This document shows, piece after piece, positions 6,984 through 44,054 of a DNA stretch of 64,000 nt. Made by a program: the position numbers and the translations under genes. This DNA is from Streptomyces triticisoli. Lineage in GTDB: Bacteria; Actinomycetota; Actinomycetes; Streptomycetales; Streptomycetaceae. Position 1 is the stretch's first letter; each line of letters starts with the position of its first letter. The stretch lies in contig NZ_QFDQ01000020.1 of NCBI RefSeq assembly GCF_003270085.1, forward strand, positions 39,616 through 103,615. The letters are read 5' to 3'. The notes beneath the pieces were generated by a model. That model worked only from the letters and a program-made list of their open reading frames with translations, was not told the DNA's origin and made no database searches.

Positions 6984-7667
6984 TCACTTCTCGAAGCGGT
7001 AGCCCATCCCCGGCTCGGTGACGAAGTGCTTGGGGTGCGAGGGGTCGGCCTCCAGCTTCCGGCGCAGCTGGGCCATGTACACGCGCAGGTAGTTCGTCTC
7101 CGTGCCGTACGACGGCCCCCACACCTCCTGCAGCAGCTGCTTCTGGCCGACCAGGCGGCCGGTGTTGCGCACCAGCACCTCCAGCAGGTGCCATTCGGTG
7201 GGGGTGAGCCGTACGTCCCTGCCGGCCCGGTGGACCTTCTTGGCGGCCAGGTCGACGGTGAAGTCCTCGGTCTCCACCAGCACGTCGTCCTCGCCGCCGC
7301 CGACCGGTTCGGCGCGGCGGACGGCGGCGCGCAGCCGGGCCAGCAGCTCGTCCATGCCGAAGGGTTTGGTGATGTAGTCGTCGGCGCCCGCGTCCAGTGC
7401 CTGGACCTTCTCGTCGGAGGAGTGCCGGGCCGACAGCACCAGGATCGGCACGCGGGTCCAGCCGCGCAGGCCCCTGATCACCTCGACGCCGTCCATGTCG
7501 GGCAGGCCCAGGTCGAGGACGACCGCGTCGGGGTGGCGGGAGGCGGCGAGGTCGAGGGCGCCGCGGCCGTCGGTGGCGGCGTCGACCTCGTACTTGCGTG
7601 CCTTGAGGTTGATCACGAGGGCGCGCACGATCTGCGGCTCGTCGTCGACCACCAGCACCCGCGTCAT
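6984..7667 (-). CDS. kdpE: KdpE response regulator
   Basis: A 227-aa OmpR/PhoB-type regulator. The receiver holds the acidic pair DDE at 8-10, phospho-acceptor Asp52 (VVLDLGLPDMDG), the switch Ser and the invariant Lys in ITKPFG. The winged helix ends in the typical HFVTEPGMGYRFEK. It overlaps the kinase gene upstream by four bases (ATGA). KdpE normally activates kdpFABC for high-affinity K+ uptake; no kdpFABC is present here, so it acts on a distant target. Confidence 0.93.
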   Translation of the reverse strand: MTRVLVVDDEPQIVRALVINLKARKYEVDAATDGRGALDLAASRHPDAVVLDLGLPDMDGVEVIRGLRGWTRVPILVLSARHSSDEKVQALDAGADDYITKPFGMDELLARLRAAVRRAEPVGGGEDDVLVETEDFTVDLAAKKVHRAGRDVRLTPTEWHLLEVLVRNTGRLVGQKQLLQEVWGPSYGTETNYLRVYMAQLRRKLEADPSHPKHFVTEPGMGYRFEK

Positions 7668-10207
7668 GTGGTTTGCCTTTCTGGTTCGGCGAGTCGTGCG
7701 GGCACGCGAGGGCTCTTCGCGGCCCGCAGGGTGAGGACCATCGTCAGTCCGCCGCCGGGCGTGTCCTCGGCGTCGAGCGTGCCGCTCATGGCCTCGGCGA
7801 AGCCGCGCGCCACCGCGAGACCGAGGCCGACGCCGGCTCCGCGCGGGGCGTCGCCGTGGCGCTGGAAAGGCTCGAAGATACGGTCCTTGGCCTCGTCCGG
7901 GACGCCCGGACCGCGGTCGACGACCCGGACCTCGACCCGGTCGGCCATGGCGCTGGCGGACACCAGGACCGGTTCGTCCGGTGGACTGTACTTCACGGCG
8001 TTCTCCACCAGGTTGGCCACCGCGCGCTCCAGCAGCCCGGGGTCGACGGCCACCATCGGCAGGGTCTCCGGCACGTCCAGGTCGACGCTGTCCTCGGGGA
8101 CCCCGCCCAGCGCCATCGGCACCACCTCGTCGAGGTCGATCCCCCGGATCAGCGGGGTGACGGTGCCGGTCTGCAGGCGGGACATGTCCAGCAGGTTGCC
8201 CACGAGGTGGTCGAGCCGGTCGGCGCCCTCCTCGATGCCCTGGAGCAGCTCCGCGCGGTCCTCCTCGGACCACTCGACGTCCTCGGACCTGAGCGAGGAG
8301 ACGGCCGCCTTGATCCCGGCGAGCGGGGTGCGCAGGTCGTGGCTGACGGCGGCGAGCAGCGCGGTGCGGATCCGGTTGCCCTCCGCGAGGGCGCGGGCCC
8401 GGTCGGCCTCCTCTTGCAGGCGGCGGCGCTCCAGGACGACGGCGGCCTGGGCGGCGAAGGCGGCGAGCACCCGGCGGTCGGAGGCGGGCAGCACCCGTCC
8501 GGTCAGCGCCAGCGCCATGTGGTCGCCGACGGGCATGTCGACGTCCGCGTCCTCGGGGCGCTCCAGGGGCCGGCCGGTGCCCACGTGGCCGGCGCACGTC
8601 CAGGGGTCGACGTCGCTCTTCCGCTCCAGCAGTGCCACCGACTCCATGCCGAACGTTTCGCGGACCCGCTCCAGGAGCGCCTCCAGGCTGGTCTCGCCGC
8701 GCAGCACGCTGCCCGCGAGGAAGGACAGTATCTCCGCCTCGGCGCGCAGCCGGGCCGCCTGGTGGGTGCGTCTGGCCGCGAGGTCCACCACCGAGGCCAC
8801 GGACACGGCGACCCCGAAGAAGATCGCGAGGGCGACGATGTTCTTGGGGTCGGCGATGGTGAGCCGGTGCAGGGGCGGGGTGTAGTAGTAGTTCAGCAGG
8901 AGCGAACCGACGGCCGCCGAGGCGAGCGCCGGCAGCAGCCCGCCGAGCAGGGCCGCGGCCACCGTCAGGGCGAGGAACAGCAGCATGTCGTTGGCCAGGC
9001 CCAGGTCCCCGGCGTTCAGCAGCAGCGCGAGGACCACGGGGCCGGCGACGGCGACGGTCCAGCCCCCCACGATCCGGGCCCGGCCGAGGCGTGCGCCTCG
9101 GGCCACCGGCAGCCCGCGTCCCTTGGCGGCCTGTGCGTGGGTGACGATGTGCACGTCGAGGTCGGGGCCCGACTCGCGGGCCACGGTGGCGCCGACGCCG
9201 GGCCCGAAGACGTACTGCCAGCTCTTGCGGCGCGAGGAGCCGAGCACGATCTGGGTGGCGTTGACCCCGCGGGCGAAGTCGAGCAGCGCGGCCGGTACGT
9301 CGTCGCCGACGACGTGGTGGAGGGTGCCGCCCAGGTCCTCCACGAGGGTGCGCTGGACGGCCAGCTCCTTGGGGGAGGCGGAGGTCAGTCCGTCGCTGCG
9401 GGCGATGTAGACGGCCATGACCTCCCCGCCGGCGCCCTTCTCGGCCAGGCGGGCGGCCCGGCGGATCAGGGTGCGCCCCTCGGGGCCGCCGGTCAGGCCG
9501 ACCACGATCCGCTCGCGCGAGCCCCAGATCCTGGAGACCCGGTGCTCGGCACGGTAGCGCTGCAGGTACTCGTCGACCCGGTCGGCCACCCACAGCAGGG
9601 CCAGCTCGCGCAGCGCCGTGAGGTTGCCGGGGCGGAAGTAGTTGGACAGGGCCGCGTCGACCTTGTCCGGCTGGTAGATGTTGCCGTGCGCCATCCGGCG
9701 GCGCAGGGCCTCCGGCGACATGTCGACGAGCTCGACCTGGTCCGCCCGCCGCACCACCTCGTCCGGGACGGTCTCGCGCTGCCGTACGCCCGTGATCGCC
9801 TCCACCACGTCGCCGAGGGACTCCAGGTGCTGGATGTTGACCGTGGAGACGACGTCGATGCCGGCCGCGAGCAGCTCCTCCACGTCCTGCCAGCGCTTGG
9901 CGTTGCGGGAGCCGGGGATGTTGGTGTGGGCGAGCTCGTCCACCAGGGCGACGGCCGGGGCGCGGCGCAGTACGGCGTCGACGTCCATCTCGGTGAAGGT
10001 GCCGCCGCGGTCCTCCAGCTCCTTGCGGGGCACCTGCTCCAGGCCGTGCAGCATCACCTCGGTGCGCGGGCGGTCGTAGTGCTCGACGAACGCGACGACG
10101 CAGTCGGTGCCCCGCTCCACCCGGCGGTGCGCCTCGGACAGCATCGCGTACGTCTTGCCGACGCCCGGCGCCGCACCGAGGTAGATCCGGAGCTTGCCGC
10201 GTGCCAT
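7664..10207 (-). CDS. kdpD: KdpD osmosensitive potassium sensor histidine kinase
   Basis: An 847-aa membrane kinase with the full KdpD layout: N-terminal KdpD domain with a Walker A loop GAAPGVGKT at residues 11-19 and VDELAHTN, a USP-like domain (about 230-370), four closely spaced membrane helices (DUF4118, about 385-490), a GAF domain, then HisKA with the phospho-His in AAVSHDLRTPL (about 630) and HATPase_c with LVENAVKYS and GVGLGLAVARGF. KdpD senses low K+ or turgor and, in some Firmicutes, binds c-di-AMP through the USP domain; I cannot see that signature with confidence here. The stop overlaps kdpE by four bases. Confidence 0.94.
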   Translation of the reverse strand: MARGKLRIYLGAAPGVGKTYAMLSEAHRRVERGTDCVVAFVEHYDRPRTEVMLHGLEQVPRKELEDRGGTFTEMDVDAVLRRAPAVALVDELAHTNIPGSRNAKRWQDVEELLAAGIDVVSTVNIQHLESLGDVVEAITGVRQRETVPDEVVRRADQVELVDMSPEALRRRMAHGNIYQPDKVDAALSNYFRPGNLTALRELALLWVADRVDEYLQRYRAEHRVSRIWGSRERIVVGLTGGPEGRTLIRRAARLAEKGAGGEVMAVYIARSDGLTSASPKELAVQRTLVEDLGGTLHHVVGDDVPAALLDFARGVNATQIVLGSSRRKSWQYVFGPGVGATVARESGPDLDVHIVTHAQAAKGRGLPVARGARLGRARIVGGWTVAVAGPVVLALLLNAGDLGLANDMLLFLALTVAAALLGGLLPALASAAVGSLLLNYYYTPPLHRLTIADPKNIVALAIFFGVAVSVASVVDLAARRTHQAARLRAEAEILSFLAGSVLRGETSLEALLERVRETFGMESVALLERKSDVDPWTCAGHVGTGRPLERPEDADVDMPVGDHMALALTGRVLPASDRRVLAAFAAQAAVVLERRRLQEEADRARALAEGNRIRTALLAAVSHDLRTPLAGIKAAVSSLRSEDVEWSEEDRAELLQGIEEGADRLDHLVGNLLDMSRLQTGTVTPLIRGIDLDEVVPMALGGVPEDSVDLDVPETLPMVAVDPGLLERAVANLVENAVKYSPPDEPVLVSASAMADRVEVRVVDRGPGVPDEAKDRIFEPFQRHGDAPRGAGVGLGLAVARGFAEAMSGTLDAEDTPGGGLTMVLTLRAAKSPRVPARLAEPERQTT

Positions 10208-10324
10208 GGCCTCATTGTCTTCCCGTCGTGCGTGGGGACGCAGCGTCGACCTTACGGCTGCTCAGCGCGGCCCGAGGGGCCCGTGCGGGGGTGGGGACGG
10301 CCCTTGGCGCGACTCTGACGTCGG

Positions 10325-10378
10325 TGCGTCACGGATCTGTCAGCACGTCACGGATCCGTCGGTGCGTCACGGTTCGAC
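10325..10378. repeat. Three 19-bp direct repeats between kdpD and the ABC ATPase
   Basis: The core CGTCACGG begins at 10327, 10346 and 10365, an exact 19-bp period, with GATCYGTC following in the first two copies. The third copy overlaps the stop codon of the ABC ATPase gene. The array lies about 120 bp upstream of kdpD. A regulator-binding iteron set is possible; no function is shown. Confidence 0.6.
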
Positions 10379-11059
10379 GATCCTCCCGTCGCGCAGCTCC
10401 AGGACCCGGTCGGCGAGGTCCAGCAGGGTCGCGTCGTGGGTGGCGACCAGTGCGGTGACTTCCTCGCTGCGGACGACGGCGCGCAGCAGCTCCATCACGG
10501 CGTGGCCGGTCTCCGCGTCCAGCTGACCGGTCGGCTCGTCGGCCATGAGGAGCGCCGGCTCGTTCGCGAGGGCGCGGGCGATGGCCACCCGCTGCTGCTG
10601 GCCGCCGGAGAGCTCACCGGGCCGCTGCCGGGCGTGGTCGGCGAGGCCGACCAGGGACAGCAGCAGCTCGACGCGCTCCTCCCGCTCGCGCGGGTCGGCG
10701 CGACGCAGCCGCAGCGGCACGCCGACGTTCTCCGCGGCCGTGAGGATCGGGATGAGCCCGAAGGACTGGAAGACGAACCCGATGCGGTCCCGGCGCAGGG
10801 CGAGCAGGCCGTCCTCGCCGAGCTCGGACAGGTCCCGGCCGTCGACGTGGACCCGTCCCTCGTCCGGCTCGTCGAGCCCGCCGACGACGTTGAGCAGGGT
10901 GGTCTTGCCGGAGCCGGAGCGGCCCTTGAGGGCGACGAGTTCACCACGCGGCAGCTCGAAGGAGACTCCCCGCAGGGCGTGCACGGTGCCGGCTCCGTGC
11001 CCGAAGGACTTGTGGACGTTCTCGACGCGCACCATGGTCTCGGTGACGACCTGGCTCAT
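10367..11059 (-). CDS. ABC transporter ATP-binding protein (MacB/LolD type), no partner permease
   Basis: A 230-aa soluble ATPase: Walker [10 protein letters not shown] near residue 45, Q-loop in [13 protein letters not shown] signature [15 protein letters not shown] and Walker [13 protein letters not shown]. This type (ABCE3/MacB/LolD/FtsE-like) usually pairs with a FtsX-like permease involved in lipoprotein or peptide export. No permease is present on either side: 634 bp of non-coding DNA lie upstream and kdpD lies downstream. ATG at 11059 has GGGGAGGG upstream. The partner must be encoded elsewhere or be lost. Confidence 0.88.
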
Positions 11060-11693
11060 GTGCCCTCCCCGCTGCGGTCCCCCGTGGACCGGGCGTCAGT
11101 ATCACGACCCCCGCCGGTCCCTTCAAGCCCCCAACGGACGCGCGCCCACGATGGTTCCGCTTCAGGAATCCCGTTTCGGGCGGGACCACTGTCCGGCGGC
11201 GCGAGTCCCCTCCGGGACCGCGGCGGGGGCTTCGCCCCGGAGCGCGGCGGACATCCGTCGGCGCGGGCGTGGAGACCGCGTACCTGGTGCGAGTGGGGCC
11301 CTGGCGGGCGGCCGTACGTGCTGGAGGGCGGCCTTACCCGCCGAAGGGCCGCCCCCTTTGGCGGGCCGGATCAACCAACGGCGTCCCTGTGAGGGGCGCG
11401 GCCCTTCAGGTCTGCGACGAAGCGACGGCGACGGCCGGCGCCCCTCGGAAGGAGCACATCGGAAACCGCGGGATCCGGGCACACCCTCACCCGAGCCCCG
11501 CGCACAAGGACCCCAGCCGCACAGAGCCCCTGACCCGGCCCACAGGACCAGACTGCTCCGGCAGACCACGCCGGGCCCCGCGGAGCCGGGCACACCTTCA
11601 CCCGGACCCCGCGCGCGCAGAACCCCCAGCCCCCGCTCACCCGGGCCGACGGACCCCGTGGCCCGGAGCCCCGCCCGGTCCGGCCGGCGGGCC
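11060..11693. other. 634-bp non-coding stretch with degenerate direct repeats
   Basis: No frame here has family features or a good start. Two imperfect direct copies of a segment of about 46-48 bp (11472-11517 and 11583-11630, both containing CCGGGCACACC then TCACCC) lie 111 bp apart. Around 11280-11400 there are GC-rich inverted segments of GCGGCC and GGGCGGCC type, common in Streptomyces intergenic repeats. The frame on the minus strand at 11162-11593 is low-complexity Arg/Pro/Gly and I regard it as non-coding. Confidence 0.5.
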
Positions 11694-12458
11694 CTAGCGG
11701 ACCTCGGTGATCTCCGGGCCGCGCTGGAGCTGGCCCAGGCCGCCGGCGAAGCGGGACTGACCGTCGTCGTCCTGCTGGACGCCCTCGGGCACCATCTGCG
11801 CGTCGTTCGGCAGCTTCAGGACGATCGGGTCGCGGGGCGCCATCGGACCCTCGCCACGGACCACGACCGTGTCCCGGAAGATCTCCTCGAGCAGCCCTGC
11901 CGCCTGCGGCTGCACCGCGCCCTGCCCGGAGATCACCCCGCGCAGGAACCAGCGGGGACCGTCCACACCGACGAACCGCACGACCTGGTAGCCGCCCGTG
12001 CCGTCCGGCAGCTGCACCGGGACCTGGGCGCGCAGCTCCCAGCCCAGCGGCCCTTCGACCTCGTCCACGATGCCGCCCTGCTGGGTGATGCCGGAGGCGA
12101 TCTCCTCACGCACCTCGACCCAGATGCCCTCGCGCTTGGGCGCGGCGAAGGCCTGCAGCTGAACGGCGCTGTCCTGCAGGACGACGGTCGCCGCGACGAT
12201 CGCGTCGCCCGCGACCTCCACCCGCAGCTCCATGCCGTCGACGCCGGGCACGAACAGGCCGCCCAGGTCCACGCGGCCCTCGGCCGGGTCACGCACCTCG
12301 GAGCTGTCCCAGGGCCCGTCGGGCCGCGGTGCGGGCTCGAGCCTCACCCGCTCGCGCTCGCCCTCGTCGTCCGCCTCGGTGTCGACGCTGTCGACGACCT
12401 GCTCGGCCTCGCCGGCCGCGTCCTCGGCGGCACCCTTCTTCTTGCGACGTCCGAACAC
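11694..12458 (-). CDS. DUF3710 domain protein
   Basis: A 254-aa protein with a short basic start (VFGRRKKKG), an acidic linker, then a conserved beta-rich DUF3710 domain (about residues 70-235; [25 protein letters not shown]). It corresponds to Rv2696c. GTG at 12458 has GGAAGGA seven bases upstream and lies one base after the dut stop, so dut and this gene are translationally coupled. Function unknown. The constant coupling to dUTPase across actinobacteria hints at nucleotide or DNA metabolism, by context only. Confidence 0.88.
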
Positions 12459-12459
12459 G

Positions 12460-13011
12460 TCACTGTCCTTCCCGGTCGGATACGACCGAAGCGTATCGAT
12501 TCCCACCCGCCGGGCCGCCCACGGCGGCCCGGCCGTTCGTGCCGCTCGCGTCGTCCACGGCGGCGTGGCCACCCGTGGACCCGAAGCCCCCCTCGGCCCG
12601 CGCCGAGCCGGGAAGCTCCGCCACCTCCTGGAAGCGGACCCTCTCGACCTGCTGGACGACCAGTTGGGCAATCCGGTCGAAGCGCTCGAACCGCACGGAC
12701 TCGCGCGGGTCGAGATTCACCACGATCACCTTGATCTCCCCACGGTACCCGGCATCAACCGTCCCCGGGGCATTCACGAGGGCGACACCGCAACGGGCCG
12801 CGAGGCCGGAGCGCGGATGCACGAACGCCGCGTACCCCTCGGGCAGCGCGACAGACACGCCCGTGGGCAGCACGGCCCGCTCCCCCGGCGCCAGTTCGCA
12901 CTCCACGGTGGTGCGCAGATCGGCGCCGGCATCGCCCGGGTGCGCGTACGCCGGAAGCGGTACGTCGGGGTCGACACGCCGGATCAGCACGTTCAGGGGC
13001 TCGCCGCTCAC
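12460..13011 (-). CDS. dut: Deoxyuridine 5'-triphosphate nucleotidohydrolase (dUTPase)
   Basis: A 183-aa homotrimeric dUTPase, converting dUTP to dUMP plus pyrophosphate to keep uracil out of DNA and feed dTMP synthesis. All five motifs are visible: [36 protein letters not shown] with the catalytic Asp, IV DRIAQLV and V the C-terminal [11 protein letters not shown] arm. An Ala/Gly-rich tail of about 35 residues after motif V is longer than in most bacterial forms. GTG at 13011 overlaps the upstream thioesterase stop by four bases (GTGA). Confidence 0.96.
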
Positions 13012-36336: not shown

Positions 36337-37725
36337 CTACTCGGCCGCCACGACGGTGACGCGGCCGATGCCGAGAGCCTCGACGGGCTCCTTGATCTGC
36401 GCGGCGTCACCGACGAGGACGGTCACCAGCCGGTCCACCGGGAAGGCGTTGACGACGGCCGCGGTGGCCTCCACCGTGCCGGTGGCGGCGAGCTGCTGGT
36501 ACAGCGTCGCCTGGTAGTCGTCGGGCAGGTGCTGCTCGACCTGGTCGGCCAGCGTGTTCGCCACGGCGGCCGCCGTCTCGTACTTCAGCGGCGCCACGCC
36601 GACGAGGTTCTGCACGGCGACGTCCCGCTCGGTGTCGGTCAGGCCCTCGGCGGCGAGCTTGCGCAGCACCGTGAAGAGGTCCCGCAGGGCCGGGCCGGTG
36701 TTCGGCGTGTCGACCGAGCCGCTGATGGCGAGCATCGCGGCGCCCGAGCCGTCGGGGGCGGAACGCAGCACCTGGCCGAACGCCCGCACACCGTAGGTGT
36801 AGCCCTTCTCCTCGCGCAGGACACGGTCCAGGCGGGAGGTGAGGGTGCCGCCGAGGCAGTACGTGCCGAGCACCTGGGCGGGCCACACACGGTCGTGCCG
36901 GTCGGGGCCGACACGACCGATGAGCAGCTGTGTCTGGACGGCGCCGGGCCGGTTGACGATGACCACGCGCCCGGTGTCGTCGGCGGTCACCGGCGGCACG
37001 GGCCGCGGCTTGGCGGGCGCCCCCGTCCAGGCGCCCAGGGTCTCGCCCAGCAGCTCGTCCAGGTCGATGCCGGTGAGGTCGCCGACGACCACGACGGTGG
37101 CCGTGGCGGGACGTACGTACCGGTCGTAGAAGGAGCGGACGGCCGCCGAGTCGATGGCGCCGACCGTCTCCTCGGTGCCCTGGCGCGGGCGCGACATGCG
37201 CGCGGTGGCCGGGAACAGCTCCTTGGAGAGCTCCTTGGCGGCACGGCGGGCGGGGTTGGCCTGCTCGTGCGGGATCTCGTCGAGCCGGTTGCGCACCAGC
37301 CGCTCGACCTCGGAGTCGGCGAAGGCGGGTGCCCTGAGGGCGTCGGCCAGCAGGCCGAGCCCCTTGGCCAGGCGGGAGGCCGGGACCTCCAGGACGAGCC
37401 GTACGCCGGGGTGGTCGGCGTGCATGTCGAGGGTGGCGCCCGCGCGCTCCAGCTCGGCGGCGAACTCCTCGGCGGAGTGCTTGTCGGTGCCCTCGGAGAA
37501 GGCCCGGGCCATGATCGTGGCGACGCCGTCCAGGCCGTCCGGCTCGGCGTCCAGGGGCGCGTCCAGCAGCACCTCGACGGCGACGACCTGCTGGCCGGGG
37601 CGGTGGCAGCGCAGCACCGTCAGGCCGTTGTCCAGCGTTCCGCGCTCGGGTGCCGGGAACGCCCACGGCCTGGCCTCGCCCGCCTGGGGCCGGGGGTGGA
37701 ACTCCATCGTGGCGAGCTCGGTCAC
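36337..37725 (-). CDS. M16 peptidase-family protein, non-catalytic partner
   Basis: A 462-aa M16 subunit. The zinc motif HxxEH is absent: the matching position reads ATIMARAFSEGTDKHSAEEF. The Arg/Tyr substrate-binding pair typical of the partner subunit is kept (REEKGYTYGVRAFG). GTG at 37725 overlaps the catalytic gene stop (GTGA); ATG at 37707 is an alternative. With its neighbour it should form a heterodimeric M16B protease like SPH2681/SPH2682-type bacterial pairs. Substrate unknown. Confidence 0.87.
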   Translation of the reverse strand: MTELATMEFHPRPQAGEARPWAFPAPERGTLDNGLTVLRCHRPGQQVVAVEVLLDAPLDAEPDGLDGVATIMARAFSEGTDKHSAEEFAAELERAGATLDMHADHPGVRLVLEVPASRLAKGLGLLADALRAPAFADSEVERLVRNRLDEIPHEQANPARRAAKELSKELFPATARMSRPRQGTEETVGAIDSAAVRSFYDRYVRPATATVVVVGDLTGIDLDELLGETLGAWTGAPAKPRPVPPVTADDTGRVVIVNRPGAVQTQLLIGRVGPDRHDRVWPAQVLGTYCLGGTLTSRLDRVLREEKGYTYGVRAFGQVLRSAPDGSGAAMLAISGSVDTPNTGPALRDLFTVLRKLAAEGLTDTERDVAVQNLVGVAPLKYETAAAVANTLADQVEQHLPDDYQATLYQQLAATGTVEATAAVVNAFPVDRLVTVLVGDAAQIKEPVEALGIGRVTVVAAE

Positions 37726-39119
37726 TTCGCCGCCTCCTCGGTGTCGTCGGTGGCCGCGGCGTCCGCGTCCTGGGCGTCGGCGGCTTCGGCTGCTTCGACT
37801 GCCTCGGCCGTGTCGGCGGCGGTCGGCTCGTAGACGAGCACCGCGCGGTTGTCGGGCCGCAGGCGGGCCCTGGCGGCCTCCTGGACCTCCTGCGGGGTCA
37901 CCTCCAGGACGCGCTTGACGGCGGTCAGGGCGAGCTGCGGGTCGCCGAACAGGACGGCGTACCGGCACAGTTCGTCGGCGCGGCCCGCGACCGTGCCGAG
38001 CCGGTCCAGCCACTCGCGCTCCAACTGGGCCTGGGCGCGCTCCATCTCCTCGGCCGTCGGTCCCTCCTCCGCGAACCGGGAGAGCTCCTCGTCGATGGCC
38101 GACTCGATGACGGGGATCTCGACGTCGCCGGAGGCCTTCACGTCCAGCCAGCCCAGGGAGGGCGCGCCGGCCAGCCGCAGCAGGCCGAAGCCGGCGGCGA
38201 CGGCGGTACGGTCGCGGCGCACCAGCCGGTTGTACAGGCGGGAGGACTCGCCGCCGCCGAGGATGGTCAGCGCCAGGTCGGCCGCGTCGCACGCGCGCGT
38301 GCCGTCGTGCGGGAGCCGGTAGGCGGCCATCAGGGCACGGGCCGGGACCTCCTCCTCGACGACCTCGCGCATCTGCTCGCCGATGGTCTCGGGCAGGGAG
38401 CCGTCGCGGGGCTGGGGCTTGCCGTCGTGGGACGGGATGGAGCCGAAGTACTTCTCGATCCAGGCGAGCGTCTGCTGCGGGTCGATGTCGCCGACGACCG
38501 ACAGGACGGCGTTGTTGGGCGCGTAGTACGTCCGGAAGAACTGCCGGGCGTCCTCCAGGGTGGCCGCGTCGAGGTCCGCCATGGAACCGATCGGCGTGTG
38601 GTGGTACGGGTGGCCCTCCGGGTAGGCGAGGGCGGTCAGCCTCTCGAAGGCGGTGCCGTAGGGGACGTTGTCGTAGCGCTGGCGGCGCTCGTTCTTGACG
38701 ACGTCCCGCTGGTTCTCCATGGACTCGTCGTCCAGCGCGGCGAGCAGGGAGCCCATGCGGTCGGCCTCCAGCCAGAGGGCGAGCTCCAGCTGGTGGGCGG
38801 GCATGGTCTCGAAGTAGTTGGTGCGCTCGAAGCTGGTGGTGCCGTTGAGCGAGCCGCCCGCGCCCTGCACCAGCTCGAAGTGACCGTTGCCCTTGACCTG
38901 GGCGGAGCCCTGGAACATCAGGTGCTCGAAAAGGTGAGCCAGGCCGGTGCGTCCCTTGACCTCGTGGCGCGAGCCGACGTCGTACCAGAGGCACACCGCC
39001 GCGACCGGGGTCAGGCGGTCCTCGGAGAGCACCACGCGCAGGCCGTTGGCCAGGCGGTGCTCGGTCGCTGTCAGGCCGCCGGAGCCTGCCTCGGCTGTGG
39101 CCGTGTGACCCATGGGCAT
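37722..39119 (-). CDS. M16 family zinc peptidase, catalytic subunit
   Basis: A 465-aa cytoplasmic M16B peptidase. The inverted zinc motif HLFEH is at residues 62-66 with the distal Glu near residue 140 (MENQRDVVKNERRQ). ATG at 39119 sits six bases after AAGGG; ATGs at 39125 and 39113 are worse spaced. The open frame continues far upstream to 40280, but that part is the repeat region and has no start context. The C-terminus is Ala/Glu/Asp-rich. It is coupled to the inactive partner. Confidence 0.9.
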   Translation of the reverse strand: MPMGHTATAEAGSGGLTATEHRLANGLRVVLSEDRLTPVAAVCLWYDVGSRHEVKGRTGLAHLFEHLMFQGSAQVKGNGHFELVQGAGGSLNGTTSFERTNYFETMPAHQLELALWLEADRMGSLLAALDDESMENQRDVVKNERRQRYDNVPYGTAFERLTALAYPEGHPYHHTPIGSMADLDAATLEDARQFFRTYYAPNNAVLSVVGDIDPQQTLAWIEKYFGSIPSHDGKPQPRDGSLPETIGEQMREVVEEEVPARALMAAYRLPHDGTRACDAADLALTILGGGESSRLYNRLVRRDRTAVAAGFGLLRLAGAPSLGWLDVKASGDVEIPVIESAIDEELSRFAEEGPTAEEMERAQAQLEREWLDRLGTVAGRADELCRYAVLFGDPQLALTAVKRVLEVTPQEVQEAARARLRPDNRAVLVYEPTAADTAEAVEAAEAADAQDADAAATDDTEEAAK

Positions 39120-39264: not shown

Positions 39265-40110
39265 GGACGCGCCCCGAGCGCAGGACGCCTCCGGGGCGCG
39301 GTGGGGCAGTCGAGGCCGGCGCCCCACACCCGCGGCGCGGGCACGAAACAGTGGCGATGGACGTGGACAACCCGCCACGGCGTCCCACGCCCGCGGCGCA
39401 GGCACGCGTGCGTGGCGCGGGGCAGGCCGGGAAGCGGCTGCGGCGAGAGTGCGCGGGCACGGGCACGCGTGCGTGGCGCGGGCGTGGCACCGGTCGGTCT
39501 TTGCGGGTTCGGGCGGGGCGGCACGCGCGCGGGAGAGGGGCCGCGATCGTCGGCGTGGGGATGGCCATCCTCTGGGGGCGACGCGCGCGCGGAGGACGGG
39601 CCGGCCGTTCCGGGACTCCGTGGGCCCGGCCAAGGCGCCCGGGCGCGGAACCGGCCTCGGGGGCCGGGGCATCGGACGTCACTGCTGAGCCGCTGCGGTC
39701 GCCCCACAGGAGCGGGCCATGCCGCTGAAGCGGCTGCACCGCGCAGGCGGCGGCAGCGTCGGGCGGGATCGCCGGGCCAGGAGGTGCCGCCGGCTCCCCG
39801 GGCCCGGCGGGCGCCGCGGCCGGAATGCCGCGCGTGTGCAGGGCACTGGCACGAGGCCGAGGCGCGGCTCGGAGTCGGGTTCGGAAATTCCACGCGTGCG
39901 CGAGGCACACGTCCCCAGTCCGGCGGAGTCCGCGCTCCACTGGCGGAATTCCACGCGCGCGAGGCACACGGTGCCGTCCGGGGCGTAGGGCCAGGCGTTG
40001 GACGGAATTCCACGCGTGCGCGAGGCACGCGCTTCCGGCCGGGCGGGCACTGCACCGGACCCGCGGAAATTCCGCGGGTCCGCGGGGCACGCGTGCGCGT
40101 GGGACGGGCA
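39265..40110 (-). CRISPR. Degenerate CRISPR-like array, type I-E style, no cas genes
   Basis: The 846 bp between the M16 genes and parC carry a repeat with 59-62 bp period. Plus-strand markers 'ggcac' closing each repeat fall at 39340, 39401, 39462, then 39841, 39903, 39962, 40023 and 40085; weaker units fill the middle in phase. On the minus strand the best copies read GTGCCTCGCGCACGCGTGG then AATTCC, close to the type I-E consensus (GTGCTCCCCGCGCACGCGGG...), with a hairpin core (CCTCGCG/CGCGTGG). Intervening 31-33 bp differ. Many copies are mutated, so the array is a relic or a 61-bp minisatellite. No cas gene is in the window. Confidence 0.5.
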
Positions 40111-40326: not shown

Positions 40327-42783
40327 ATGGCCCGCCGCAGCACGAAGACCCCGCCGCCCGACGACTCGTACGAGGAGAAGATCCTCGACATCGACGTCGT
40401 CGATGAAATGCAGGGCTCCTTCCTCGAATACGCGTACTCGGTCATCTACTCCCGCGCCCTGCCGGACGCCCGGGACGGTCTCAAGCCGGTGCACCGCCGC
40501 ATCGTCTACCAGATGAACGAGATGGGCCTGCGGCCTGAGCGCGGGTACGTGAAGTGCGCCCGCGTCGTCGGCGAGGTCATGGGCAAGTTGCACCCGCACG
40601 GCGACGCGTCGATCTACGACGCCCTCGTGCGCATGGCGCAGCCCTTCTCCATGCGCGTTCCCCTGGTCGACGGCCACGGCAACTTCGGTTCGCTGGGCAA
40701 CGACGACCCGCCGGCGGCCATGCGGTACACCGAGTGCCGTATGGCGGCGGCGACGTCCCTGATGACGGAGTCCATCGACGAGGACACCGTCGACTTCGCC
40801 CCCAACTACGACGGCCAGGAACAGGAACCGGTCGCCCTGCCCGCCGCCTTCCCGAACCTGCTCGTCAACGGCTCCTCGGGCATCGCCGTCGGCATGGCCA
40901 CGAACATGCCTCCGCACAACCTCAACGAGGTCATCGCGGCCGCCCGCCACCTGATCCGTTACCCGAACGCGGACCTGGACGCCCTGATGAAGCACGTCCC
41001 GGGCCCGGACCTGCCCACCGGCGGCCGGATCGTCGGCCTGTCCGGGGTCAGGGACGCCTACGAGACGGGCCGCGGCACCTTCAAGATCCGCGCGACGGTC
41101 TCGGTGGAGACGGTGACGGCCCGCCGCAAGGGGCTGATCATCACTGAACTGCCCTTCGCCGTGGGCCCGGAGAAGGTGATCGCCAAGATCAAGGACCTGG
41201 TCGGCTCGAAGAAGGTCCAGGGCATCGCCGACGTCAAGGACCTCACCGACCGCGAGCACGGCCTGCGCCTGGTCATCGAGATCAAGAACGGCTTCGTGCC
41301 GGAGGCCGTCCTGGAGCAGCTCTACAAGCTGACGCCGATGGAGGAGTCCTTCGGCATCAACAACGTCGCGCTCGTCGACGGCCAGCCCCTCACCCTGGGC
41401 CTCAAGGAGCTCCTGGAGGTCTACCTCGACCACCGCTTCGACGTCGTACGGCGCCGCAGCGAGTACCGGCGCGGCAAGCGGCGCGACCGGCTGCACCTGG
41501 TCGAGGGCCTGCTCACCGCGCTGATGGACATCGACGAGGTCATCCGTCTGATCCGCTCCAGCGAGAACTCCGCGCAGGCCAAGGAGCGCCTGATGGAGCA
41601 CTTCTCGCTGAGCGAGGTGCAGACGCAGTACATCCTCGACACGCCGCTGCGCCGTCTGACCAAGTTCGACCGCATCGAGCTGGAGGCGGAGAAGGACAAG
41701 CTCGTCGCGGAGATCGAGGAGCTGACCCGGATCCTGGAGTCGGACGCGGAGCTGCGCAAGCTGGTGTCGGCCGAACTGGCCGCGGTCGCCAAGAAGTTCG
41801 GCACTCCGCGGCGCACGATGCTGCTGGAGGCGGGCGCCGCCCCGGCCGCCGCGGTGCCGCTGCAGGTGGCGGACGACCCGTGCCGCGTACTGCTGTCCTC
41901 GGCGGGTCTGCTGGCCCGTACGGCGAACAGCGATCCGTTCCCGCAGGGCACGGACGGCAAGCGGCACAAGCACGACCTGATCGTCTCGGCGGTTCCGGCG
42001 ACCGCCCGCGGCGAGGTGGGCGTGGTGACGTCCGCCGGCCGCCTGCTCCGGGTGAACGTCATCGACCTGCCCCAGCTGCCGGAGACGGCCTCGGCGGCGC
42101 ACCTCTCCGGCGGCGCACCCCTGGCGGAGTTCGTCACCCTGGAGGAAGACGAGAGCGTGGTCTGCCTGACCACGCTGGACGAGTCGTCGCCGGGCCTGGC
42201 CCTCGGCACCGAACAGGGTGTCGTCAAGCGTGTGGTCCCCGACTACCCCTCGAGCAGGGAGGAGTTGGAGGTCATCACCCTCAAGGAGGGCGACCGGATC
42301 GTCGGCGCGGTGGAGCTGCGCACCGGTGAGGAGGACCTGGTCTTCATCACGGACGACGCCCAGCTCCTGCGTTACCAGGCCTCCCAGGTCCGCCCGCAGG
42401 GCCGCCCGGCCGGCGGCATGGCCGGCATCAAGCTCGCCGAGGGCGCCAAGGTCATCTCGTTCACGGCCATCGATCCGGCCGCGGACGCGGTCGTCGTCAC
42501 CGTCGCCGGCTCGCGCGGGACGCTGGACGACTCCGTGCAGACGACGGGCAAGGTCACCCCGTTCGACCAGTTCCCGCGCAAGGGCCGGGCGACCGGCGGT
42601 GTCCGCTGCCAGCGGTTCCTGAAGGGCGAGGACTGCCTGGCCTTCGCCTGGGCCGGCCCCACGCCGGCCCGGGCCGCGCAGAAGAACGGCAGCCCGGCCG
42701 AACTCCCGGAGGCCGACCCGCGCCGCGACGGCTCGGGCGGGTCGCTGCCGAAGACGTTGGCGGTGGTGGCGGGGCCGGCCTAG
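40327..42783 (+). CDS. parC: DNA topoisomerase IV subunit A (ParC)
   Basis: An 818-aa GyrA-family subunit. The DNA-cleaving tyrosine is Tyr134 (AMRYTECR). At the quinolone position (GyrA Ser83) it has Ala104 ([10 protein letters not shown]). A winged helix, tower and coiled coil fill residues to about 500; the C-terminal half has beta-pinwheel blades ([29 protein letters not shown]) but no GyrA-box, which separates it from gyrase A. ATG at 40327 follows AAGGAG. The stop shares CTAG with the convergent CobW gene. It pairs with parE at 48114-50237. Confidence 0.93.
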
Positions 42784-44054
42784 ACCGGGGGCTCCTGCAG
42801 GTCCGGATCCCCGGGATCCGGTTCCTCGGAGCCTCGTACGTAGCGGAGGACGCCCCACATGCCGTGCTCGTCGGCGTGCGGGGCGTCGTCCTTGCACGCC
42901 TCCAGCTCCTTGCCGAGGGCGCCCGTGTCGATGCCGGAGCCGATGAGCACCAGCTGGGTGAGGCGGGGTTCGCCGGCCGGCCAGGGTTCGGGATAGAAGC
43001 GCAGGAAGCGGCCCACGGCGTGCACGGCGTAGCGGTTGCGGGGGTCGTGGGGGCCGAAGTCGACGTACCCCTTGATCCGGTAGAGCCCGTCGGGGCGGCT
43101 GTCGAGGAACCGCATCAGCCGGCGGGGGCCGAGCGGCACGTCGGCGGCGAAGGAGAGGCTGTCGTAGCCGGTGTGCAGGTGCCCGGCGTGGCCGCTGTCG
43201 TAGCCGGTGTGCAGGTGCCCGGCGTGGCCGCTGTCGTAGCCGGTGTGCAGGTGCCCGGCGTGGCCGCTGTCGTAGCCGGTGTGCAGGTGCCCGGCGTGGC
43301 CGCTGTCGTCGCTGCCCTCGTGCAGATCGTCGAAGGACAACTGCCCGATGCGCTCCTCGCCGGGCCTGCAGTCGAAGAGGAACTCGGGGTCGACACGGCC
43401 GTGGGAGGCCGGGACGACGGCGGCCCCGTCGACGAGGGACGCCACGAGGTCGAGCACCTTTTCCACGTCGGCGGCCCGGTCCGCCTTGTTGACGACGACG
43501 AGGTCGGCGAGCGCGAGATGCCGGTCGAGTTCCGGGTGGAGCGCGCGGGTGGCGTCGAACTCGGCGGCGTCGACGACCTCGACGAGCCCGCCGTAGACGA
43601 CCCTGGGGTTGTCACTGGCCAGCACCATGCGGACGAGCTCCTGGGGTTCGGCGAGTCCGCTGGCCTCGATGACGACGACGTCGATACCGGCGGCGGGGCT
43701 CGTGAGCCGGTCCAGGTACACGTCGAGCTCGCTCACGTCGACCGCGCAGCACAGGCACCCGTTGCCGAGGGAGACGGTGGAGTCCCCGAGCGCTCCCGCG
43801 ACCGCCATGGCGTCGATCTCGATGGCGCCGAAGTCGTTGACGATCGCGCCGATACGGCTTCCGCCGCTGTGGTGGAGGAGGTGGTTGAGCAGCGTGGTCT
43901 TCCCGGAGCCGAGGAATCCGGCGAGCACGACGACCGGGATCTGCGGCACGGCCGGACTCGGACTTGGCTGCGGACCCGGACCCGGACCCGGACTTGGCTG
44001 CGGGCTTGGGCTCGGGTTCCGGCTCGGACTGGAGTCCCGGCTCGGCTGACTCAC
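42780..44054 (-). CDS. CobW/P47K-family (G3E) GTPase, probable metallochaperone
   Basis: A 424-aa GTPase. After a Pro/Ser/Gly-rich start: Walker [12 protein letters not shown], metal site GNGCLCCAV (CxCC), switch region EASGLAEPQE, NKAD, and the C-terminal CobW_C domain. Between them is a His-rich loop made of four identical copies of the 12-residue unit DSGHAGHLHTGY, probably Zn/Co binding. GTG at 44054 follows GAGAGAGG; a longer start at 44093 has none. COG0523 proteins deliver zinc or other metals; no Zur box was found in the gap upstream. Its stop overlaps parC. Confidence 0.88.
   Translation of the reverse strand: MSQPSRDSSPSRNPSPSPQPSPGPGPGPQPSPSPAVPQIPVVVLAGFLGSGKTTLLNHLLHHSGGSRIGAIVNDFGAIEIDAMAVAGALGDSTVSLGNGCLCCAVDVSELDVYLDRLTSPAAGIDVVVIEASGLAEPQELVRMVLASDNPRVVYGGLVEVVDAAEFDATRALHPELDRHLALADLVVVNKADRAADVEKVLDLVASLVDGAAVVPASHGRVDPEFLFDCRPGEERIGQLSFDDLHEGSDDSGHAGHLHTGYDSGHAGHLHTGYDSGHAGHLHTGYDSGHAGHLHTGYDSLSFAADVPLGPRRLMRFLDSRPDGLYRIKGYVDFGPHDPRNRYAVHAVGRFLRFYPEPWPAGEPRLTQLVLIGSGIDTGALGKELEACKDDAPHADEHGMWGVLRYVRGSEEPDPGDPDLQEPPV
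43161..43304 (-). repeat. 36-bp minisatellite, four perfect copies, inside the CobW gene
   Basis: Four identical 36-bp units (43161-43196, 43197-43232, 43233-43268, 43269-43304) encode the 12-residue His-rich unit. Perfect identity, at DNA level including all third positions, indicates recent expansion; copy number may vary between strains. Confidence 0.95.

Follow-up and report, generated by a model that had tools for sequence, protein, structure and literature searches.

Stray CRISPR loci are said to have been described by Nivala et al. in 2018 as products of non-canonical spacer integration, the local sequence becoming the repeat. Integration of spacers outside arrays is described in two further papers, in one of them under overexpression of Cas1-Cas2 (PMC11788318) and also in the other (PMC9456107). 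The type I-E system of Streptomyces avermitilis uses the protospacer-adjacent motif (PAM) AAG, the last G of which is inserted along with 32 bp; its new spacers have a uniform length of 32 bp, and four had gone in flipped (PMC4762764). Spacers matching the organism's own genome are reported there too, and three such matches described in that paper lack AAG. Self-matching spacers are not rare, at 6% of spacers (PMC8616872). A literature search, covering titles and abstract openings, found no prior report on the locus described here.

The window, by which we mean the whole 64-kb stretch of DNA analysed, corresponds to positions 39616-103615 of contig C111 in a draft genome of 6.84 Mb and 297 contigs. 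A first-pass annotation had read its positions 39265-40110 as one CRISPR-like array of many mutated units, a relic of a dead system lacking cas genes. The repetition is real. A lag scan for 24-nt stretches (at least 19 of 24 nt matching) recurring at lags of 56-66 gave 75 matches in the 64 kb, 57 of which start within 39265-40110, all 57 at lags of 59-62; the null, from 20 shuffles within 200-nt blocks, had a mean of 0.45 matches and a maximum of 4. A single array it is not: the region holds two separate clusters, a clean set of five repeats at 39821-40093 on the right and, at 39317-39588 on the left, a less CRISPR-like tandem cluster of 61-bp period. Their parts and the flanking genes are as follows.

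37722..39119, minus strand: M16 peptidase gene flanking the array, divergent from parC, with its start near 39119
39317..39588, tentatively minus strand: left cluster, of 60-61-bp period, with repeat-like blocks at 39317, 39378 and 39439 and weaker ones to 39588
39821..39849, minus strand: repeat R1, 29 nt, borders set by the parse; diverged from R2-R4; joins the left half of the nearest relative's single copy
39850..39881, minus strand: spacer s1, 32 nt
39882..39911, minus strand: repeat R2, 30 nt
39912..39943, minus strand: spacer s2, 32 nt
39944..39970, minus strand: repeat R3, 27 nt, without 2 nt of the core
39971..40002, plus strand: spacer s3, 32 nt, self-matching (DUF3152 gene on contig C261)
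40003..40031, minus strand: repeat R4, 29 nt
40032..40063, minus strand: spacer s4, 32 nt
40064..40093, minus strand: repeat R5, 30 nt, forming an inverted repeat with the end of s4
40327..42783, plus strand: flanking gene for a presumed parC-like topoisomerase

The name parC follows the first-pass annotation. The gap between the M16 gene and parC is 1213 bp long here and 176-763 bp in 79 relatives. The 80 best relatives of the M16 peptidase are all Streptomyces records except one labelled Actinobacteria, which makes Streptomyces the probable genus of the draft genome, and 79 of the 80 fetched loci entered the gap table, L061 being left out because it gave no parC. In two other Streptomyces species (L048, L058) inspection by eye suggests unrelated tandem repeats at this place, so that the gap seems prone to repeat growth. 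Beyond parC, at 43158-43309, lies a perfect 36-bp tandem repeat of 4.2 copies within an open frame, encoding a repeated histidine-rich peptide; the frame is presumably that of a GTPase, which looks CobW-like.

The right cluster, parsed by its outermost conserved columns, consists of five repeats of 27-30 nt separated by four spacers of exactly 32 nt each, the spacing of type I-E that had been proposed for it. Its period of 59-62 bp arises from indels inside the repeats, spacer length being constant. GGCAC words mark the repeats of both clusters: those on the left stand where the annotation had put them (39340, 39401 and 39462), those on the right exist but each one base away, at 39842, 39904, 39963, 40024 and 40086, and the intervals of 62, 59, 61 and 62 given for them hold; two more such words, at 39848 and 40046, are out of register. 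R2-R4 are near-identical save for indels, while R1 and R5 have diverged. A 13-bp perfect inverted repeat at 40056-40082 is formed by R5 and the end of s4, and is possibly the trace of a templated mutation; a single event of that kind would account for the several differences between R5 and R2-R4.

Aligned unit by unit, the right-cluster repeats stand far above shuffles (z = 21) and the spacer positions do not (z = 1.8), both values having been computed with unit borders a few bases off the final parse. The mean pairwise score of the spacers is -0.08, that of random 32-mers from the flanks -0.20, and 44% of 2000 draws were at least as high as observed: the right-cluster spacers are unrelated to one another. 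The difference in intervening sequence that had been claimed for the whole region thus holds on the right. On the left it holds only in part, neighbouring blocks having up to 40 nt in common and two 'spacers' starting with the same 15 nt. For these two reasons we do not claim the left cluster as a CRISPR array. Its repeat differs from that of the right cluster; V5 within it has its highest score when read on the plus strand and compared with the resident repeat of this genome (z 3.9); and at the corresponding point the nearest relative found carries a single palindromic copy. Conservation of the whole unit, spacers included, as expected of a minisatellite, is found in part in the left cluster and fails in the right.

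The origin of one spacer can be traced. Positions 39970-40002, comprising s3 and the last G of R3, are a 33/33 copy of a sequence on another contig of the same genome, C261 (E 9.9e-10; 2.9e-9 in a second own-genome search, in which the next matches outside the region appear only at 4e-4 and above). The donor lies at the 3' end of an open frame encoding a DUF3152 domain. Its context reads GTGGAA and then, from the first base of the match, GGTGCC; as AA directly precedes the 33-nt match, the s3 protospacer is 32 nt with an AAG PAM immediately upstream, the G having been carried along. A survey for the donor region was positive in 7 of 12 genomes tested. The ortholog in the nearest relative found matches at 32/33 with the same AA before it, and that of another genome at 30/33 with TA before it. 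Since other genomes hold orthologs of the DUF3152 gene, we conclude that the sequence passed from the gene to the array. The donor remains intact, PAM included, and s3 is still identical to it while R1 and R5 have drifted. A search of relatives with the array examined 41 genomes, of which 26 gave matches at E≤0.01, for the most part over short stretches; those around s3, at first taken for donor orthologs, are partial alignments that look like chance, and the real orthologs were found separately. A fourth genome (G078), 83% identical across repeat and spacer, was likewise discarded as a donor ortholog, the sequence encoding a different protein there.

The AAG PAM with its carried-along G is seen for one of the four spacers. 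For s1, s2 and s4 there was no match at E≤1e-5 in 392 genomes, with the two best first-look candidates scored per genome, and no donor in the own genome among the 40 of 223 candidates scored. Nor did a phage or plasmid source, which the first-pass annotation had proposed to look for, emerge: at E≤1 the whole region 39265-40110 matched 14 phage records, the best at 0.07, and 39 plasmid records, the best at 0.02, with no convincing donor among either, and the exact repeat pattern had 0 matches in viral contigs. The one Rfam match was by chance.

The cell has CRISPR machinery elsewhere. Profile searches for Cse1 and Cas1 gave no match on the array's contig, Cse1 being confined to contig C245 and Cas1 to C245 and C250; the claimed absence of cas genes therefore stands for the contig, as regards these two proteins, but not for the genome, and, arrays without cas genes being known, it does not speak against an array. 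C245 carries cas1e, cas2e, cas5e, cas6e, cas7e, cse1 and cse2, all above curated cut-offs, and since cas1e and cas2e are among these type I-E genes an integrase of that type is available in trans. The frame at the cas3 position, which we take to be cas3, gave no NCBIfam match at 1e-5 for the piece tested. Accompanying the operon are two arrays with a different repeat, CTGCTCCCCGCACCCGCGGGGATGGTCCC, with counts of 28 and 24 for its most frequent 12-mers. The terminal base of the resident repeats is C, and spacer 1 of a resident array (L014 2443-2475), the one clear self match among the resident spacers, matches the own genome 33/33 at C74:37039-37071 (L180) without AAG; the resident Cas1-Cas2 may therefore prefer another motif, or be less strict. 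A comparison of the resident arrays with phages, aimed at the resident PAM, gave no match at E≤0.01.

Two further CRISPR features were noted in the draft. On C250 (L126, G000:C250:12001-31000, at 7500-12800) a gene for a reverse transcriptase-Cas1 fusion, its Cas1 domain in two frames in the draft, is adjoined by Cas6 and RAMP genes and has beside it a short array of three copies of TATGCCCTGCGGGCGTCAG. Contig C34, again other than that of the cas operon, bears a mini-array of two repeats and one spacer (L181 1500-1590, G000:C34:27670-27753), the repeats being near the resident type I-E repeat; the genes adjoining it are presumably chelatase-like.

As to the repeats themselves, their proposed minus-strand resemblance to type I-E repeats is borne out: in an ungapped alignment R2 (39910-39882) agrees at 22 of 29 positions with a Nocardiopsis type I-E repeat whose terminal base was set to G, and R2-R4 score z 4.9 on that strand against the published Nocardiopsis repeat, the best of many comparisons (five repeats against 16 reference repeats on both strands). 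When the entire gap is scanned, its highest I-E-like score does not exceed shuffles (window z 1.8), and among the 80 gaps of the 79 relatives and the window none is clearly beyond them, the best being z 2.9 in L053 and 2.7 in L016. Folding of four right-cluster repeats gave structures unlike that of the resident repeat for R2 and R4, and a retained central stem for R1 and R5. The array repeat pattern (27 nt, up to 3 mismatches) occurs in one of 392 genomes, its own; it retrieves only R2 and R4 of the five local repeats, and diverged or shortened copies elsewhere would escape it. The array flanks resemble neither resident leader beyond shuffles (16 against 15.4, and 18 against 15.0), whereas the two resident leaders score 62 against each other; the comparison covered leaders of the resident type. 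Repeat likeness would orient the array on the minus strand, the PAM of s3 on the plus strand.

Relatives were compared at the same site. The nearest found, G295 and S. kebangsaanensis (L016), are identical across their 695-bp gap and so count as one sequence. They have a single-copy counterpart of the repeat at the same point, with a clean difference of 244 bp by which the relative is shorter, and the G295 copy is a chimera of R1 and R5, an arrangement also compatible with collapse. G295 has no Cse1, and in a Cse1 survey of 9 genomes the 3 positives were the own genome, G208 and G164, the latter two matching the gap ends only, with nothing resembling the array there. In the gap search 392 genomes were drawn, with two best first-look candidates scored in each, and 257 matched at E≤1e-10; because only G295 reaches the middle of the gap, among the matches listed, the ancestral state at the site is not polarised.

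That type I-E adaptation produced these spacers is very probable. Because one 32-base spacer exactly copies the cell's own genome and cas genes are present on another contig, CRISPR machinery may well have written the array at the wrong place; the statement as a whole, namely that a type I-E Cas1-Cas2 integrase wrote it and did so outside proper CRISPR loci, is in our estimation an even call. Such an integrase would capture a 33-bp piece, the G of AAG and 32 nt, and insert it at a palindromic, repeat-like local site, which would be copied each time, the local sequence thereby turning into 'repeat'. Speaking for such stray writing are the occurrence of the repeat pattern in one of 392 genomes, the want of a resident-type leader, folds of R2 and R4 unlike the resident repeat, and, in the nearest relative, a single copy and no Cse1. 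Against it are the terminal C of the resident repeats, the C74 match without AAG, the drift of R1 and R5 beside an undecayed s3, and a donor for one spacer of four; also the I-E-like minus strand of R2-R4, the stem in R1 and R5, the lack of an array in G208 and G164, and a pattern that misses three of the five repeats.

The remnant reading follows closely. On this view the locus was once an ordinary orphan type I-E array, equipped with a repeat type, cas genes and a leader of its own; it has decayed here, and recombination has collapsed it to one repeat in the nearest relative. We rate this as a serious possibility, somewhat short of even. It accounts for the likeness of the minus-strand repeats to actinobacterial I-E repeats (both the ungapped agreement of R2 and the R2-R4 score against Nocardiopsis), for the stem kept in R1 and R5, and for the G295 copy, since an R1/R5 chimera across the 244-bp difference is what repeat-repeat recombination would give. 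An AAG-using system separate from the resident one would suit the different terminal base of the resident arrays, the Cse1-bearing G208 and G164 match the gap ends only, and cas-less orphan arrays are known (PMC8616872). It fares less well with a repeat pattern found nowhere else in the 392 genomes (a pattern that misses three of five local repeats), with the lack of a leader resembling the resident ones, with the other repeat of the left cluster and with an s3 undecayed despite the drift of R1 and R5. The relic proposed by the first-pass annotation is thus a close contender without being the sole fit, given that the repeat was found nowhere but here, that no leader of the resident type was recognised, and that the genome has a type I-E operon on another contig. 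On balance we prefer off-locus writing.

The 61-bp minisatellite of non-CRISPR origin that had been offered as the other reading is improbable. The seemingly tandem gaps of L048 and L058, judged by eye, and the 40-nt blocks and common 'spacer' starts of the left cluster lend it something, but we reject it for the right cluster, where the spacers are mutually unrelated and all of 32 nt, one of them reproduces part of a gene from a different contig with a PAM beside the original, and Tandem Repeats Finder (score 30) gives no array of period near 61. The least probable reading takes the locus for a series of binding sites through which a protein would regulate the divergent promoters of M16 and parC, and the donor match for a by-product of templated insertion: palindromic cores do lie between divergent genes, but the gap middle is aligned by G295 only, among the matches listed, and constant 32-nt spacing with a PAM-flanked insert would be unexpected.

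Returning to off-locus writing by a type I-E integrase, we tentatively extend it to a natural neo-CRISPR, rather less likely to be right than wrong: a native palindrome of the gap would have become the repeat through successive insertions of 33-bp fragments by the type I-E integrase of the cell itself, the resulting private array storing a piece of one of the cell's genes, and the second cluster, at a distance of about 230 bp, would have arisen earlier in the same way from another palindrome. The array is probably silent in defence, since both the donor and its PAM are intact and neither flank of the repeats shows a leader of the resident type. If the plus orientation is right, the intact donor and PAM would mean that the array goes unused by a working effector; alternatively s3 would have been inserted flipped relative to the repeat, so that a transcript of the minus strand would encounter GTC in place of AAG and leave the gene alone. 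Under either orientation lethal self-attack need not be supposed. Should the locus prove to be a natural array of this kind, its private repeat, its single-copy counterpart in a sister species and its PAM-flanked self spacer would make it suitable for testing how CRISPR loci arise, and also how a self-derived spacer is tolerated.

Set beside known systems, the locus shares with the type I-E array of S. avermitilis (PMC4762764) its 32-nt spacers, repeats of about 29 nt with a putative palindromic core, an AAG PAM with the G carried in, and self-matching; it departs from that array in having no adjacent cas genes, no recognised leader of the resident type, a repeat found at one locus only, and five units whose repeats are non-identical and of 27-30 nt. 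With cas-less orphan arrays and the tandem repeats classed as false CRISPRs (PMC8616872, PMC5294841) it has in common a repeat-spacer look and no neighbouring cas genes; false CRISPRs lack spacer diversity, whereas the present spacers are distinct and for one of them there is a donor with a PAM. From the off-array integration described under Cas1-Cas2 overexpression (PMC11788318) this locus differs in lying in a natural genome, in holding four spacers and in being deduced from sequence alone. What it would share with stray loci is integration outside arrays and, reportedly, the use of local sequence as the repeat.
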